Source: Caldisericum exile
GTDB taxonomy: Bacteria; Caldisericota; Caldisericia; Caldisericales; Caldisericaceae
NCBI GenBank assembly: GCA_020722505.1
Contig: DYKR01000004.1
Location: 1 to 37,759 of the forward strand
Direction: 5' to 3'
DNA: 37,759 bases
The notes beneath the pieces are model-generated. The model had not been told where the DNA came from and did not search any database. It was given only the letters and a program-made list of their open reading frames with translations. Positions 832-36,671 of the stretch are shown piece by piece. Both the position numbers and the translations under genes were made by a program. How positions within the stretch are numbered: the first letter of the stretch is position 1; the number at the start of each line of letters is the position of its first letter.

Positions 832-2007
832 ATGGAAAATGTTTTTGATGTAGTTATCATTGGCGGTGGTCCAGTTGGATTAAGGGTTGCTTTATCCTTG
901 GGAAGGGCAAAACTTAGAGTTTTAGTTTTAGAAGCAAAATCAAGGGTTGGTTATCCAAACCACTGCTCTGGCTTAGTTCCAATTGAATTTATCAACATTG
1001 GAGAAGTTAAAGACAATCTTATCTTAAACTACATAAAAGGTAGTGCGGTATATTCTTTTAAAGAAAATTCTTTCCTATTTAAAAGAGACATTCCCTATGC
1101 AGCTGTTATAGATAGGACGAATTTTGACATTTACACTGAAAAACTTGCGAAAAGTGCTTCTGCCAAGATTATCTACAATGCCTATGTTAAGGAAATTAAA
1201 AAAGAAGGTAAAAATACCCTTGTTAGACTAAATAGCGGAGATGAATATTTTGCAAGAGTGCTTGTGGTTGCAACGGGTGCAGCAAATGCAATTCAAAGTA
1301 AAATTGGAGTGGAATTAAAAAGTGAGACGATTTACACCGTTCAAGTTGACGGGGAAGTCTCTTTAGAGGATTACGAAGTTGCATACATCTATATGAACAA
1401 TAGAATTGCAACCGATTGGTTTGCATGGATTATCCCAACAAAAGATGGCTTTGTAAGAATTGGTCTTGGCACATCCAAAGGAGAGAACATACTTAAAAAA
1501 CTCGACGAGTTATTTTCAGAGTGGAGTTTGCTAAAACATGCTCGCATTGTAAGTAAGCCAGTTGTATGGAGTATACCAATCGGAATCCCAAAAAGGATTG
1601 TCTTTGATAACATTCTATTTGTTGGTGATAGTGCAAGACAGGTAAAACCTTTTTCTGGTGGTGGGCTTCTTACAGGATTTATTGGCGCAGATGACTTATC
1701 GAAAGCAGTTTTAAAAGCTTTTAATGGCCCAGATGAAAGTTTTTACAAGGCGCTATCTTCCTACGAAAGTAATGTGAAAGAAAAACTCTATAAAGAATTT
1801 GGAAGGGAGCTATTTTTAAGAGACATTTACAAAACACTATCAGATGAGAGTAAAGATAAAATCCTAAGAAGTATCAACAAAGATAAGGTGGTAGATGTTC
1901 TTTTAAAATTCGGTATGATGGATAAGCCATCGATTACAGGGTTAAAACTCCTTAAAGAAATGCCACTTATGCTATTTTTGTATCTTAAAGATAAACTAAG
2001 TGTTTAG
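832..2007 (+). CDS. Geranylgeranyl reductase family FAD-dependent oxidoreductase
   Basis: N-terminal FAD motif VVIIGGGPVGLRVALSLGRAKLRVLVLEA, then NHCSGLV and LFVGDSARQVKPFSGGG as in the GGR family. Confidence 0.85.
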   Translation: MENVFDVVIIGGGPVGLRVALSLGRAKLRVLVLEAKSRVGYPNHCSGLVPIEFINIGEVKDNLILNYIKGSAVYSFKENSFLFKRDIPYAAVIDRTNFDIYTEKLAKSASAKIIYNAYVKEIKKEGKNTLVRLNSGDEYFARVLVVATGAANAIQSKIGVELKSETIYTVQVDGEVSLEDYEVAYIYMNNRIATDWFAWIIPTKDGFVRIGLGTSKGENILKKLDELFSEWSLLKHARIVSKPVVWSIPIGIPKRIVFDNILFVGDSARQVKPFSGGGLLTGFIGADDLSKAVLKAFNGPDESFYKALSSYESNVKEKLYKEFGRELFLRDIYKTLSDESKDKILRSINKDKVVDVLLKFGMMDKPSITGLKLLKEMPLMLFLYLKDKLSV

Positions 2008-4046
2008 TGTAATAACAATTTTTCAATCCTTGGAGAGCCAACAAGCACTACCTTGTTTCTTCCCCTTGTGATAGCAAAAGACAAATTGAAGTTATCTTTA
2101 AAAACGGGAGGTAGATCTCCCTCATCAACAAAGTTAATTATCACAACTGGTTTTTGCACGGCTTCAAAAACTTCTTTTACGGCAACATCATCAATATGCG
2201 CTTCCTTCAATAGTTCATTTATGTATGCTTTTTGTCTTTCGTATGGCACAATCACTTCTAAAGAAGACCTTTCAACTCCACTTTTAAGGAAGTTTGAGAT
2301 AAGTTCAACTGTAAATTCACCTTCTTGCTCATTGAATTTGTTTTTGTTAAACGTTGTGCTTCCTAAAATCCGCACAAACTGCACAACTTTTTCAGGGTTT
2401 ATAATTGGGATAAACTCCTTACTTATGTTATTTTTATTTACAATCTTAAGTTCGTTTAATTCAAGTTTAGAAGAGGCACTTAGTTTAAAAAACTTTGACA
2501 CAAAATTGTAAATGGACTTATCAAAACCAAAAACTTCGTTTAATAACCGTAGGTTTGTATTTTTAACTTCTTCTTCAAAAGGCACAGAAGTGGTAGGATA
2601 AGTGAATACAATGAGATTTTCCGTAAATGAGGCAAGGTTGAGTAAATCTTCATAGAGGATTTCCTTATCAAAATAAAAGATATCATCGTAATAGTCGGTA
2701 ATTGAATTTATATCGTTACAGACCAAATTACCAAACACTTCATAAAGGGAAGCATACACATTTTTTGAATATATAATCACTTTTTTAGAAGGAAAGTCTC
2801 TTATGAATTCTCCTATAAGGTGCTTTTTACCTGTTCCAAAATCACCTTTAATGATAGCAAAAATTGGGTTTGCGCTTATTAGTTCTTTTGGTGTGTAATC
2901 TAACGAAGGAAGCGGTGGCAAGGGTGCCGAATGGATAAGAAAATCTTTCAAAAGGGACTGCTTTTCTTTTAACTTTACAATACCCTTTATACTTCTTTCC
3001 ATTGTTTTTAGTGGGACAACGGAGTCAGCGGATGCTGTATTATAATCGGTTAAAATTTTTATGGTTTTAAAATCTACTTCTTTTACAACTCCAAATACCT
3101 TCATACTGAAGGGAGGTTTCTCTAAAATTACAACGGGTGCGTCTTTTTTAAGGTTAAATTCGTTATCTTTTATGTTTGCTTCAACTTCATACCCCTCGAT
3201 CTTTTGATTATATAATTTGAGCCCTTCTATACTTTCATTGCTTGCTTCAAGGACTTTCTTTACAAACTTTCTTGTGTTTCGTAAATCTTTTAAAAATCTT
3301 AAAATATACGACGCTAAAGATTCTTTTTCATCTAAAAGAAACCTACAATTTTTGTAATGGGGATTTTCTTCATTAAGAAATTTTTCAAGAAAATCAAAAA
3401 AGTGATAGATTGCAAAAACAAATTGGTTTCTTTTATCAACGATTTTTTTTCTATTAGGGGCAGTGATAGTCCTTTTATCAAAAGTGCCTGTAGAACTCAT
3501 TACAAGATACTGATCCTGGTTTGTAGAGAGTGCTTGGATTACGCCTTTGGTATCATTTCCTTCAAAAACAACTGGAAATTTACCAAAGGATAGAGCGTCT
3601 TTGACAAAAAAACCATAGGTTGTATTAAAAACATAGGGCCTAAAACTAAATTTTGCTTTAACATCTTTGGGTAGGCGTTCCTTAAGGTATTTAAACTGCT
3701 CAGAAGTTTTAATATCTCTAATCGCTAAAAATATTTCTTTTTCATAGGATGCTTTTAGAGCACTTCCTGTAAAAAGTGCAAAAAGAGTTTCAAAAATGTC
3801 AACGTCAATTTCTTCTGCCTCTACAAGAAAGCCAGGGTAGTAAGAAATTAAAGAATCTTCTCTTACCTCATAAAATGATTTAAGAAAACTTTTCTCTCTA
3901 TAAACGTTTATTAAACTCAACTTTTTTACGTTGTTTAGTTCTAACGGGTTTTTAAAAACTACATCCACAAGCCCTGCTTCTGTTGATAATAAGATTTTGT
4001 TTTGCCCTTTTATTTCTTTTACAACAACCCCTTTTAAATTAACCAT
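2004..4046 (-). CDS. Divergent Dna2/Upf1-like SF1 helicase-related protein
   Basis: Walker-A-like GDFGTGKK and C-terminal motif-VI-like FAITRGRNKVVLVGS; start moved from 4232 to 4046 (MVNLKGVV) because the upstream 62 aa overlap the SCIFF gene and promoter region. Confidence 0.6.
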   Translation of the reverse strand: MVNLKGVVVKEIKGQNKILLSTEAGLVDVVFKNPLELNNVKKLSLINVYREKSFLKSFYEVREDSLISYYPGFLVEAEEIDVDIFETLFALFTGSALKASYEKEIFLAIRDIKTSEQFKYLKERLPKDVKAKFSFRPYVFNTTYGFFVKDALSFGKFPVVFEGNDTKGVIQALSTNQDQYLVMSSTGTFDKRTITAPNRKKIVDKRNQFVFAIYHFFDFLEKFLNEENPHYKNCRFLLDEKESLASYILRFLKDLRNTRKFVKKVLEASNESIEGLKLYNQKIEGYEVEANIKDNEFNLKKDAPVVILEKPPFSMKVFGVVKEVDFKTIKILTDYNTASADSVVPLKTMERSIKGIVKLKEKQSLLKDFLIHSAPLPPLPSLDYTPKELISANPIFAIIKGDFGTGKKHLIGEFIRDFPSKKVIIYSKNVYASLYEVFGNLVCNDINSITDYYDDIFYFDKEILYEDLLNLASFTENLIVFTYPTTSVPFEEEVKNTNLRLLNEVFGFDKSIYNFVSKFFKLSASSKLELNELKIVNKNNISKEFIPIINPEKVVQFVRILGSTTFNKNKFNEQEGEFTVELISNFLKSGVERSSLEVIVPYERQKAYINELLKEAHIDDVAVKEVFEAVQKPVVIINFVDEGDLPPVFKDNFNLSFAITRGRNKVVLVGSPRIEKLLLH

Positions 4047-4076
4047 TGCAATTTCATTATACCAAAATAAAAGGTG

Positions 4077-4105
4077 TTGCAAAATTTTATAAAAAATTTT
4101 ATAAT
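4077..4105 (+). promoter_or_regulatory. Sigma-A-like promoter for the SCIFF operon
   Basis: TTGCAA (4077-4082), 17-nt spacer, TATAAT (4100-4105). Confidence 0.65.
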
Positions 4106-4129
4106 TTAAAAGTAAGTTGGGAGGTAAAA

Positions 4130-4294
4130 ATGAAACACATAAAAGTTGTAAGCAAAAGACCTTTTTGGAATATTGACAAGGCACACGATTGTAGAGCCTG
4201 CCAAACACCTTGCAAGTCTGCTTGTAAAACAAGCGTTACAGTAGGTAACCAAGTTTGCGAAGTTAAAAAACCAGTAAAAAGGTGGATTTGGTAG
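4130..4294 (+). CDS. SCIFF (six-cysteines-in-forty-five) ranthipeptide precursor, 5-Cys variant
   Basis: 54 aa MKHIKVVSKRPFWNIDKAHDCRACQTPCKSACKTSVTVGNQVCEVKKPVKRWIW; MKHIK start and CxxCQTxCxSACKTSxTVxNQxCE match SCIFF; GGGAGG RBS at 4119-4124; followed directly by the maturase. Confidence 0.9.
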   Translation: MKHIKVVSKRPFWNIDKAHDCRACQTPCKSACKTSVTVGNQVCEVKKPVKRWIW

Positions 4295-4297
4295 TTA

Positions 4298-5686
4298 ATG
4301 TTCGATAGATCACTTGTCCATCTTTTCCCCTTTAACGGGGGATATTTTGTTTTAGATGTAAACTCTGGAAGTTTTTTTAATGTAGACGAAACAACATTCC
4401 TGTATATTAACAAACTTGTTGAAACAGGGTCAAAAGAAGCTGCGGTAGATAAGTTAAAGAAGCAATTTCCATATATTGAAGAAGTTGCAGACGAAGTAGA
4501 AAAACTAATAAAAGAGAGGTTATTGTTTTCCAAACCACCTTCATACTTTGTTTCAAACTTAACACTTAAGTCAATGTGTCTTAATGTAGCACATTCCTGC
4601 AATTTTGGGTGTCTCTACTGCTTTGCAAAAAAGGGAAACTACGGTGGAAAAGAAGCACTTATGAGTTTTGATGTTGCAAAAAAGGCAATTGATTTCTTAT
4701 ACAATAACTCGGATGGAAGAGAATCTCTTGAGGTTGATTTCTTTGGTGGTGAACCTTTACTAAATTTCGAAGTGGTTAAGAAAACAATTGAATATGCAAG
4801 GTCAACTTATAAAGATAAATCTTTTAGGTTTTCAATTACAACAAATGGAAACCTTCTTAACGAAGATATAGAGAAATTTTTATTTGATAACGATGTAAGC
4901 ATTGTCTTAAGCCTTGATGGGGATAAAGAAACAAACGATAAATACAGAGTTTTAAGAAATGGAAGCGGCACGTTTGATTTTGTTTACCCAAAGATAAAAA
5001 TGGTTGTAGACCATAGAGCTGAATACGGTGGATACTATGTAAGAGGCACGTATACACACACAACAATGGATATTGCTAAAACTGTTTTGTCTTTAAAAGG
5101 TTTTGGATTTAAATACATCTCCCTTGAGCCAGTTGTGACAAAAGACGATAAGATAAGCATTAAAGAAAGCGACCTTCCTAAATTAAAAAAAGAATACGGA
5201 AAATTGGCTGAAGCCTACGTAGAATCCCAAAAAACTAACCAATGGACTTTCTTTCATTTTAATATTGACCTTGAGGCTGGCCCTTGCATACAGAAAAGAA
5301 TCAATGGGTGTGGTGCAGGAGTTGAATACATCGCAGTTTCTCCCGATGGTTCAATTTATCCGTGCCATCAGTTTGATGGTATTAAAGAGACAAAACTCGG
5401 AGATGTCTTTAATGGAATAGTAAATATGGGACTTCAAGAAAAGTTTAGAAAAGCAAACTTTTTATTCAACAAACCTGAATGTGCAAACTGTTGGGCACGC
5501 TTTTACTGTTCCGGTGGGTGTCTTGCAAATAACTACATCATAAACGGAGATATTTTTAAGCCGTATGCAATTGGATGTGAAATTCAAAAGATGCGTATAG
5601 AAGCCGCCCTATACGTGCAATACAAGTTAAAAGAGCTTGGGTTAGAAGTCCCCACAACTCAAATTTCAGACGGGCATTGCAGTTAG
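4298..5686 (+). CDS. SCIFF thioether maturase, radical SAM/SPASM
   Basis: CNFGCLYC radical SAM motif; SPASM region CGAGVEYIAVSPDGSIYPCH...CANCWARFYCSGGC; N-terminal RRE-like region; adjacent to the SCIFF precursor. Confidence 0.92.
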   Translation: MFDRSLVHLFPFNGGYFVLDVNSGSFFNVDETTFLYINKLVETGSKEAAVDKLKKQFPYIEEVADEVEKLIKERLLFSKPPSYFVSNLTLKSMCLNVAHSCNFGCLYCFAKKGNYGGKEALMSFDVAKKAIDFLYNNSDGRESLEVDFFGGEPLLNFEVVKKTIEYARSTYKDKSFRFSITTNGNLLNEDIEKFLFDNDVSIVLSLDGDKETNDKYRVLRNGSGTFDFVYPKIKMVVDHRAEYGGYYVRGTYTHTTMDIAKTVLSLKGFGFKYISLEPVVTKDDKISIKESDLPKLKKEYGKLAEAYVESQKTNQWTFFHFNIDLEAGPCIQKRINGCGAGVEYIAVSPDGSIYPCHQFDGIKETKLGDVFNGIVNMGLQEKFRKANFLFNKPECANCWARFYCSGGCLANNYIINGDIFKPYAIGCEIQKMRIEAALYVQYKLKELGLEVPTTQISDGHCS

Positions 5687-5748: not shown

Positions 5749-6065
5749 ATGATAAAAATTGACTACACGAAAGAAGCACAGACAACAAAAACCCCAATGT
5801 AGGATGGGTAGAAATAAAGAATACGGGCTCAACGTCTATAAACTTAAAAGGATTTATACTGAAAGATAAAGCAAACCATAAATTCGTATTCCCTAATTTT
5901 ATACTTGCTCCTGGAAAAATTGTTAAAGTTTATTCGGGGAAAGGAACATCAAACCCAAGTTCTCTATATTGGGGGTCAAGCATTGCCATATGGAATAACA
6001 CTGGAGATACTGCTTACCTTTATGATAGTAGCGAAAAACTAATTGACACTTACAAGTATCCATAA
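5749..6065 (+). pseudogene. Remnant or frameshifted lamin-tail-domain (LTD) protein fragment
   Basis: Not in ORF track. Frame starting 5763 reads TDNKNPNVGWVEIKNTGSTSINLKGFILKDKANHKFVFPNFILAPGKIVKVYSGKG...AIWNNTGDTAYLYDSSEKLIDTYKYP*; preceding MIKIDYTKEA is in another frame. Confidence 0.75.
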
Positions 6066-36488: not shown

Positions 36489-36510
36489 GCACAGGGCAAT
36501 AAACCTTGCA

Positions 36511-36601
36511 CCATCTCCCTACGCCGGCATTACCCGGATCAGGTTCCAGGGGTCGAGCAAATACTTTGCTCCTCTCAGCTTCAAAAAGCTCCCCCGTAGC
36601 C
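36511..36601 (-). ncRNA. TPP (THI element) riboswitch
   Basis: Minus strand CTACGGGGGAGCTTTTTGAAGCTGAGAGGAGC...GACCCCTGGAACCTGATCCGGGTAATGCCGGCGTAGGGAG matches THI-box consensus. Confidence 0.97.
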
Positions 36602-36671
36602 ATATTAATTGTAACAAAATTTAGAAAAATTTCAAACATTTTATCATTCAACCTTATAAAATTCGTTAAAA

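Follow-up and report, generated by a model that had tools for sequence, protein, structure and literature searches.

A five-cysteine SCIFF precursor with an aromatic tail and its putative maturase in Caldisericum exile

The DNA analysed here, a 37,759-nucleotide stretch from Caldisericum exile (hereafter, the window), encodes a SCIFF precursor peptide with five cysteines and an aromatic tail, followed directly by a maturase gene. We consider it likely, with a probability of about 0.8, that these genes form a working SCIFF ranthipeptide system in which a thioether would join Cys32 to a threonine without any need for Cys36, and in which the tail would be a separate selected trait. We favor this reading because both proteins pass their family models and because all radical SAM and SPASM cysteines are kept. 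The type of system is already known, and the NCBI model would already name the peptide SCIFF. Few crosslinked peptides are as widespread among anaerobes as SCIFF, and the lineage variants provide a natural map of the peptide parts that evolution can spare.

The precursor (ScfA/CteA-like, 54 aa; positions 4130-4294, on the forward strand like all features below unless noted) runs from an ATG at 4130 to a TAG at 4292-4294. Its translation is MKHIKVVSKRPFWNIDKAHDCRACQTPCKSACKTSVTVGNQVCEVKKPVKRWIW, with cysteines at residues 21, 24, 28, 32, and 43. The peptide scores 59.4 bits against TIGR03973 (E = 2.4e-16; cut-off 50) and 59.6 bits against PF13165 (SCIFF; cut-off 27). Together with the adjoining maturase, the TIGR03973 score bears out the preliminary description of a SCIFF precursor with five cysteines. 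The SCIFF name calls for six cysteines in ~45 residues, one more than this peptide has, though the curated model accepts it; given that Cys36 varies across the family, the six-cysteine wording is best read as descriptive. A sequence search returned no relative of the precursor with a solved structure. The leader region (residues 1-20; 4130-4189) starts with MKHIK, like Clostridia SCIFFs, and is predicted by analogy with CteA to bind the RRE. The core includes Cys32 (4223-4225), the thioether donor known from CteA and Tte1186a, as well as both candidate acceptors, Thr34 (4229-4231; Hudson et al. 2019, as cited in PMC8326336) and Thr37 (ACA, 4238-4240). Val36 (GTT, 4235-4237) occupies the fifth canonical cysteine position; the Clostridia peptides have Cys36 in the same frame, so the replacement noticed earlier is genuine. 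The C-terminal tail, EVKKPVKRWIW, spans 4259-4291. A GGAGGT ribosome-binding site is located at 4120-4125. The promoter-like sequence further 5' (TTGCAA-17-TATAAT, 4077-4105; 10 of 12 matches) is weak evidence, as eight such sites occur in the region versus 6.3 expected by chance.

The maturase gene (ScfB/CteB-like radical SAM/SPASM enzyme, 462 aa; 4298-5686) starts three bases past the precursor stop, and its product scores 509 bits against TIGR03974 (cut-off 425). We identified the features typical of CteB-type maturases: the radical SAM CX3CX2C motif (Cys101, Cys105, and Cys108; 4598-4621), a SPASM domain (5309-5563) that keeps all eight cysteines aligned with those of CteB, and an N-terminal recognition domain. 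The closest relative of solved structure, and the sole close one, is CteB (5WGG; 437 bits, E = 5.6e-130), a similarity that settles the predicted fold. Two other assignments were rejected, namely the ScfB-related orphan maturases (NF040492; 485.9 bits, where more than 855 are needed) and freyrasin-type PapB (NF047865; 280 bits, below the cut-off of 340). The precursor is gained and lost along with the maturase: the seven of 54 genomes in the phylum without the peptide, three in the window's family and four elsewhere, are also without a maturase-level match. Past the genus, only these two genes stay paired in the loci examined, where no conserved exporter, protease, or other neighbor was found.

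The absence of Cys36 and the aromatic tail are, as judged from related genomes, fixed lineage traits. SCIFF peptides occur in 15 of the 18 genomes of the window's family (Caldiserica), and all 15 have both Val36 and KRWIW. Val36 is encoded by GTT in five of them, GTA in nine, and GTG in one, and residues K50, R51, W52, I53, and W54 are invariant, with K, R, and I codons that differ only synonymously. Because Val36 and these tail codons change only synonymously, both features bear the mark of purifying selection on the protein sequence. The preliminary description had treated the peptide as an isolated divergent case and had allowed for a base error that resequencing might turn back to cysteine. 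Instead, many SCIFFs with Val36 and the same tail exist inside the window's lineage, and three synonymous valine codons across 15 genomes rule out the error. Taken alone, the window comes from a draft genome of 694,550 bases that is 57% complete, and this would leave room for a sequencing mistake or a decaying copy. With the recurrence in 15 of 15 genomes, the intact maturase, and the conserved tail, we give either explanation virtually no weight, and a pseudogene is rejected on the same genomes and codons.

Beyond the family, residue 36 varies widely. We collected 202 SCIFF peptides (~195 after removal of seven double fetches), of which 147 have Cys at residue 36, 15 have Val, 14 Ser, seven Met, five Asn, three Leu, three Ala, and one Ile; the Clostridia share of these counts is a stratified sample of best, mid-range, and weakest matches rather than a random one. 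By these counts Cys36 is the most frequently replaced of the six SCIFF cysteines. A tree of 84 maturases, built by a quick method with SH-aLRT as the only support measure, implies at least 10 changes at this residue. Within Caldisericia, family f1 has Val, f2 Ser (codons TCG or TCC), f3 Met, f4 Asn, and f5 and f6 Cys. Elsewhere, Met occurs in a small separate phylum (G098), Ala in the Coprothermobacter type (to which we take genome G088 to belong), and Leu or Ile in a few Clostridia. The earlier suggestion that divergent variants could reveal which cysteines are dispensable is supported. Cys32 is kept in 189 of the ~195 peptides, Thr34 is present in all of them, and Cys28 is the only cysteine found in every one.

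In published work on Tte1186a and CteA, a Cys32-Thr37 thioether was found in vitro, and co-expression gave a Cys32-Thr34 thioether instead, formed at the gamma carbon (PMC8326336, PMC8172795). The active form of SCIFF and the acceptor threonine are described as unsettled (PMC8326336). Of the Cys32-Thr37 pair initially proposed for the window peptide, both residues are in place, but the choice of Thr37 as acceptor is less secure in light of the co-expression result (PMC8326336, PMC8172795). The donor in the published SCIFF thioethers is Cys32, never Cys36 (PMC8326336, PMC8172795), and for this reason Cys36 is probably dispensable for the bond. The genes, residues, conservation, and maturase motifs are observed here; the chemistry is modelled on CteA and Tte1186a, and the acceptor and the role of the tail are proposed. 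The leader (residues 1-20) would bind the N-terminal recognition domain of the maturase, as the CteA leader binds its RRE (PMC8326336). The radical SAM cluster would then generate a 5'-deoxyadenosyl radical, which would abstract a hydrogen atom from one threonine of the CKTSVT segment, and the Cys32 sulfur would join the radical-bearing threonine, as in CteA and Tte1186a. Cys36 would have no part in that thioether, which makes Val36 probably a spectator, and in the window's family valine has permanently taken the place of the cysteine. KRWIW would be a distinct, selected feature of the clade that probably serves recognition or the activity of the mature peptide. Val36 might be offset by a change in the enzyme.

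Alternatively, Val36 could signal a different crosslink, with another donor such as Cys28 or another acceptor, so that the family would make a distinct ranthipeptide. Cys28 is, as noted, alone among the cysteines in its universal presence, and the sister family f4 appears to manage without the usual donor. In its five genomes from two genera (L042, L043, L044, L045, and L048), the peptides read CQTPCKSAAKTANT (SAAKTANT), with Cys32 replaced by Ala and Cys36 by Asn while Thr34 and Thr37 are retained. No cluster cysteine is missing from the f4 maturases, which still match TIGR03974 best of all families, albeit below its cut-off of 425 (387 bits for L045). A Cys32 bond would accordingly not be universal in the clade, as peptides of the same class without Cys32 keep their maturase. 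In the window's family, however, Cys32, Thr34, and Thr37 are unchanged, and known bonds make no use of Cys36, which render a different crosslink there quite unlikely. A broader reading, which we hold tentatively at slightly under even odds, is that the maturase clade of Caldisericia and Coprothermobacterota forms a distinct ranthipeptide branch in which cysteines evolve freely around a minimal C28-x3-C32-K-T34 unit, that the f4 enzyme must use another donor or modification, and that Thr34 is the general acceptor family-wide. Bearing on the acceptor, Gly37 (CKTSCG) occurs in all six SCIFF-bearing genomes sampled from the Clostridia-phylum family G106, and the Clostridia family G449 has Gly37 in three peptides and Ser37 with Ser32 in one. 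Thr34 stays in both families, and their maturases are full length (the loci with Gly37 are L176/L208, L224-L226, and L228-L233). Because glycine has no gamma carbon, Thr37 cannot be the acceptor in the Gly37 peptides, where Thr34 persists, and Thr34 would be favored over Thr37 as the general acceptor. The Ser32 and Ser37 form (CQSASKTSCSIVNQ; L179/L209/L227 in G449) comes from a single species, retains Cys36, and is accompanied by a 493-aa maturase. In Coprothermobacterota, all nine genomes encode the maturase, and the peptides (L049/L055, L164, L165, L234, and L236-L241) have only Cys28 and Cys32, or Cys28, Cys32, and Cys36; the two-cysteine form scores 22.5 bits, below the NCBI cut-off of 50. 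The maturases of these genomes carry Ser or Asp in place of the first SPASM cysteine (position 339 of the CteB chain). In the CteB structure, substrate Cys21 is seen bound to the auxiliary cluster, and the loss of the SPASM cysteine is possibly linked to the missing substrate Cys21.

A further explanation assigns Cys36 in Clostridia a separate role, in metal binding, disulfide formation, or redox sensing, which Caldisericia would have replaced or abandoned and which the tail would have taken over. Consistent with this, Cys36 is kept in most Clostridia and variable in the tail-bearing Caldisericia clade. Among the 50 distinct peptides (duplicates removed) from the maturase clade to which Caldisericia belong, 47 have an aromatic-x-aromatic (or aromatic-x-Leu) end, the three exceptions being of the Coprothermobacter type; none of the ~145 peptides sampled from the Clostridia-type clade has one. 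However, families f5 and f6 and one Cryosericum-family genome have Cys36 and a tail (RWIW, KWIW, or RFIW), so the tail is no substitute for the cysteine, and some Clostridia have Leu36 or Ile36 and no tail. On these grounds we judge this explanation unlikely, and compensation for a lost cysteine, considered more generally, was rejected. As six-cysteine Caldisericia carry it too, the tail and cysteine loss are independent traits. Our guess is that the tail is a C-terminal element for recognition or for activity of the mature peptide.

The window genes share with CteA/CteB of Clostridium thermocellum (PDB 5WGG/5WHY) and with Tte1186a/Tte1186 the placement of precursor beside maturase, Cys32, the CKTS-x-T core, the maturase domains, and all cluster cysteines. 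Clostridia SCIFFs collected here have the same MKHIK start and the same Cys21, Cys24, Cys28, Cys32, and Cys43. They differ from the window precursor in having Cys36 rather than Val and about four non-aromatic residues after Cys43, in place of 11 ending in KRWIW. The tail had already been described as extending past the usual SCIFF end, and canonical Clostridia peptides do stop ~3-4 residues after Cys43. The SCIFF of Cryosericum (f2, e.g., Candidatus Cryosericum odellii) resembles that of the window in its core (CRECQTPCKSACKTS-x-TVGNQVCE) and aromatic tail (RFIW) but has Ser36 (Cys36 in one genome) and another leader. Freyrasin (PapA/PapB) likewise depends on a radical SAM/SPASM maturase of non-alpha thioethers; it has six Cys-Asp crosslinks (PMC8172795), versus the Cys-Thr core of SCIFF in the window precursor.

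In the literature searched, which left most subscription journals outside its scope, we found neither the lineage-fixed five-cysteine form with an aromatic tail nor any mention of SCIFF together with Caldisericum. Natural variants with five, four, three, or two cysteines, those lacking Cys32, and those carrying Gly37 all have a maturase alongside; such ready precursor-enzyme pairs make the questions of active form and acceptor directly testable. The peptides with no Cys32, with Gly37, or with two cysteines are more interesting leads than the five-cysteine form itself.

Several other features of the window were noted. At 832-4100, next to the SCIFF genes, lie a geranylgeranyl-reductase-like gene and, in divergent orientation, an IGHMBP2-like helicase gene; both are common to the two same-genus genomes examined (51-56% identity) and lie away from SCIFF in other families. 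On the 3' side of the maturase, an open frame at 5763-6065 (forward strand) encodes a Lamin Tail Domain (PF00932, 82.9 bits). It contains no ORF of at least 80 aa from a usual start codon and is perhaps the remnant of a larger gene. A TPP riboswitch was predicted at 36498-36605 on the reverse strand (76.3 bits).
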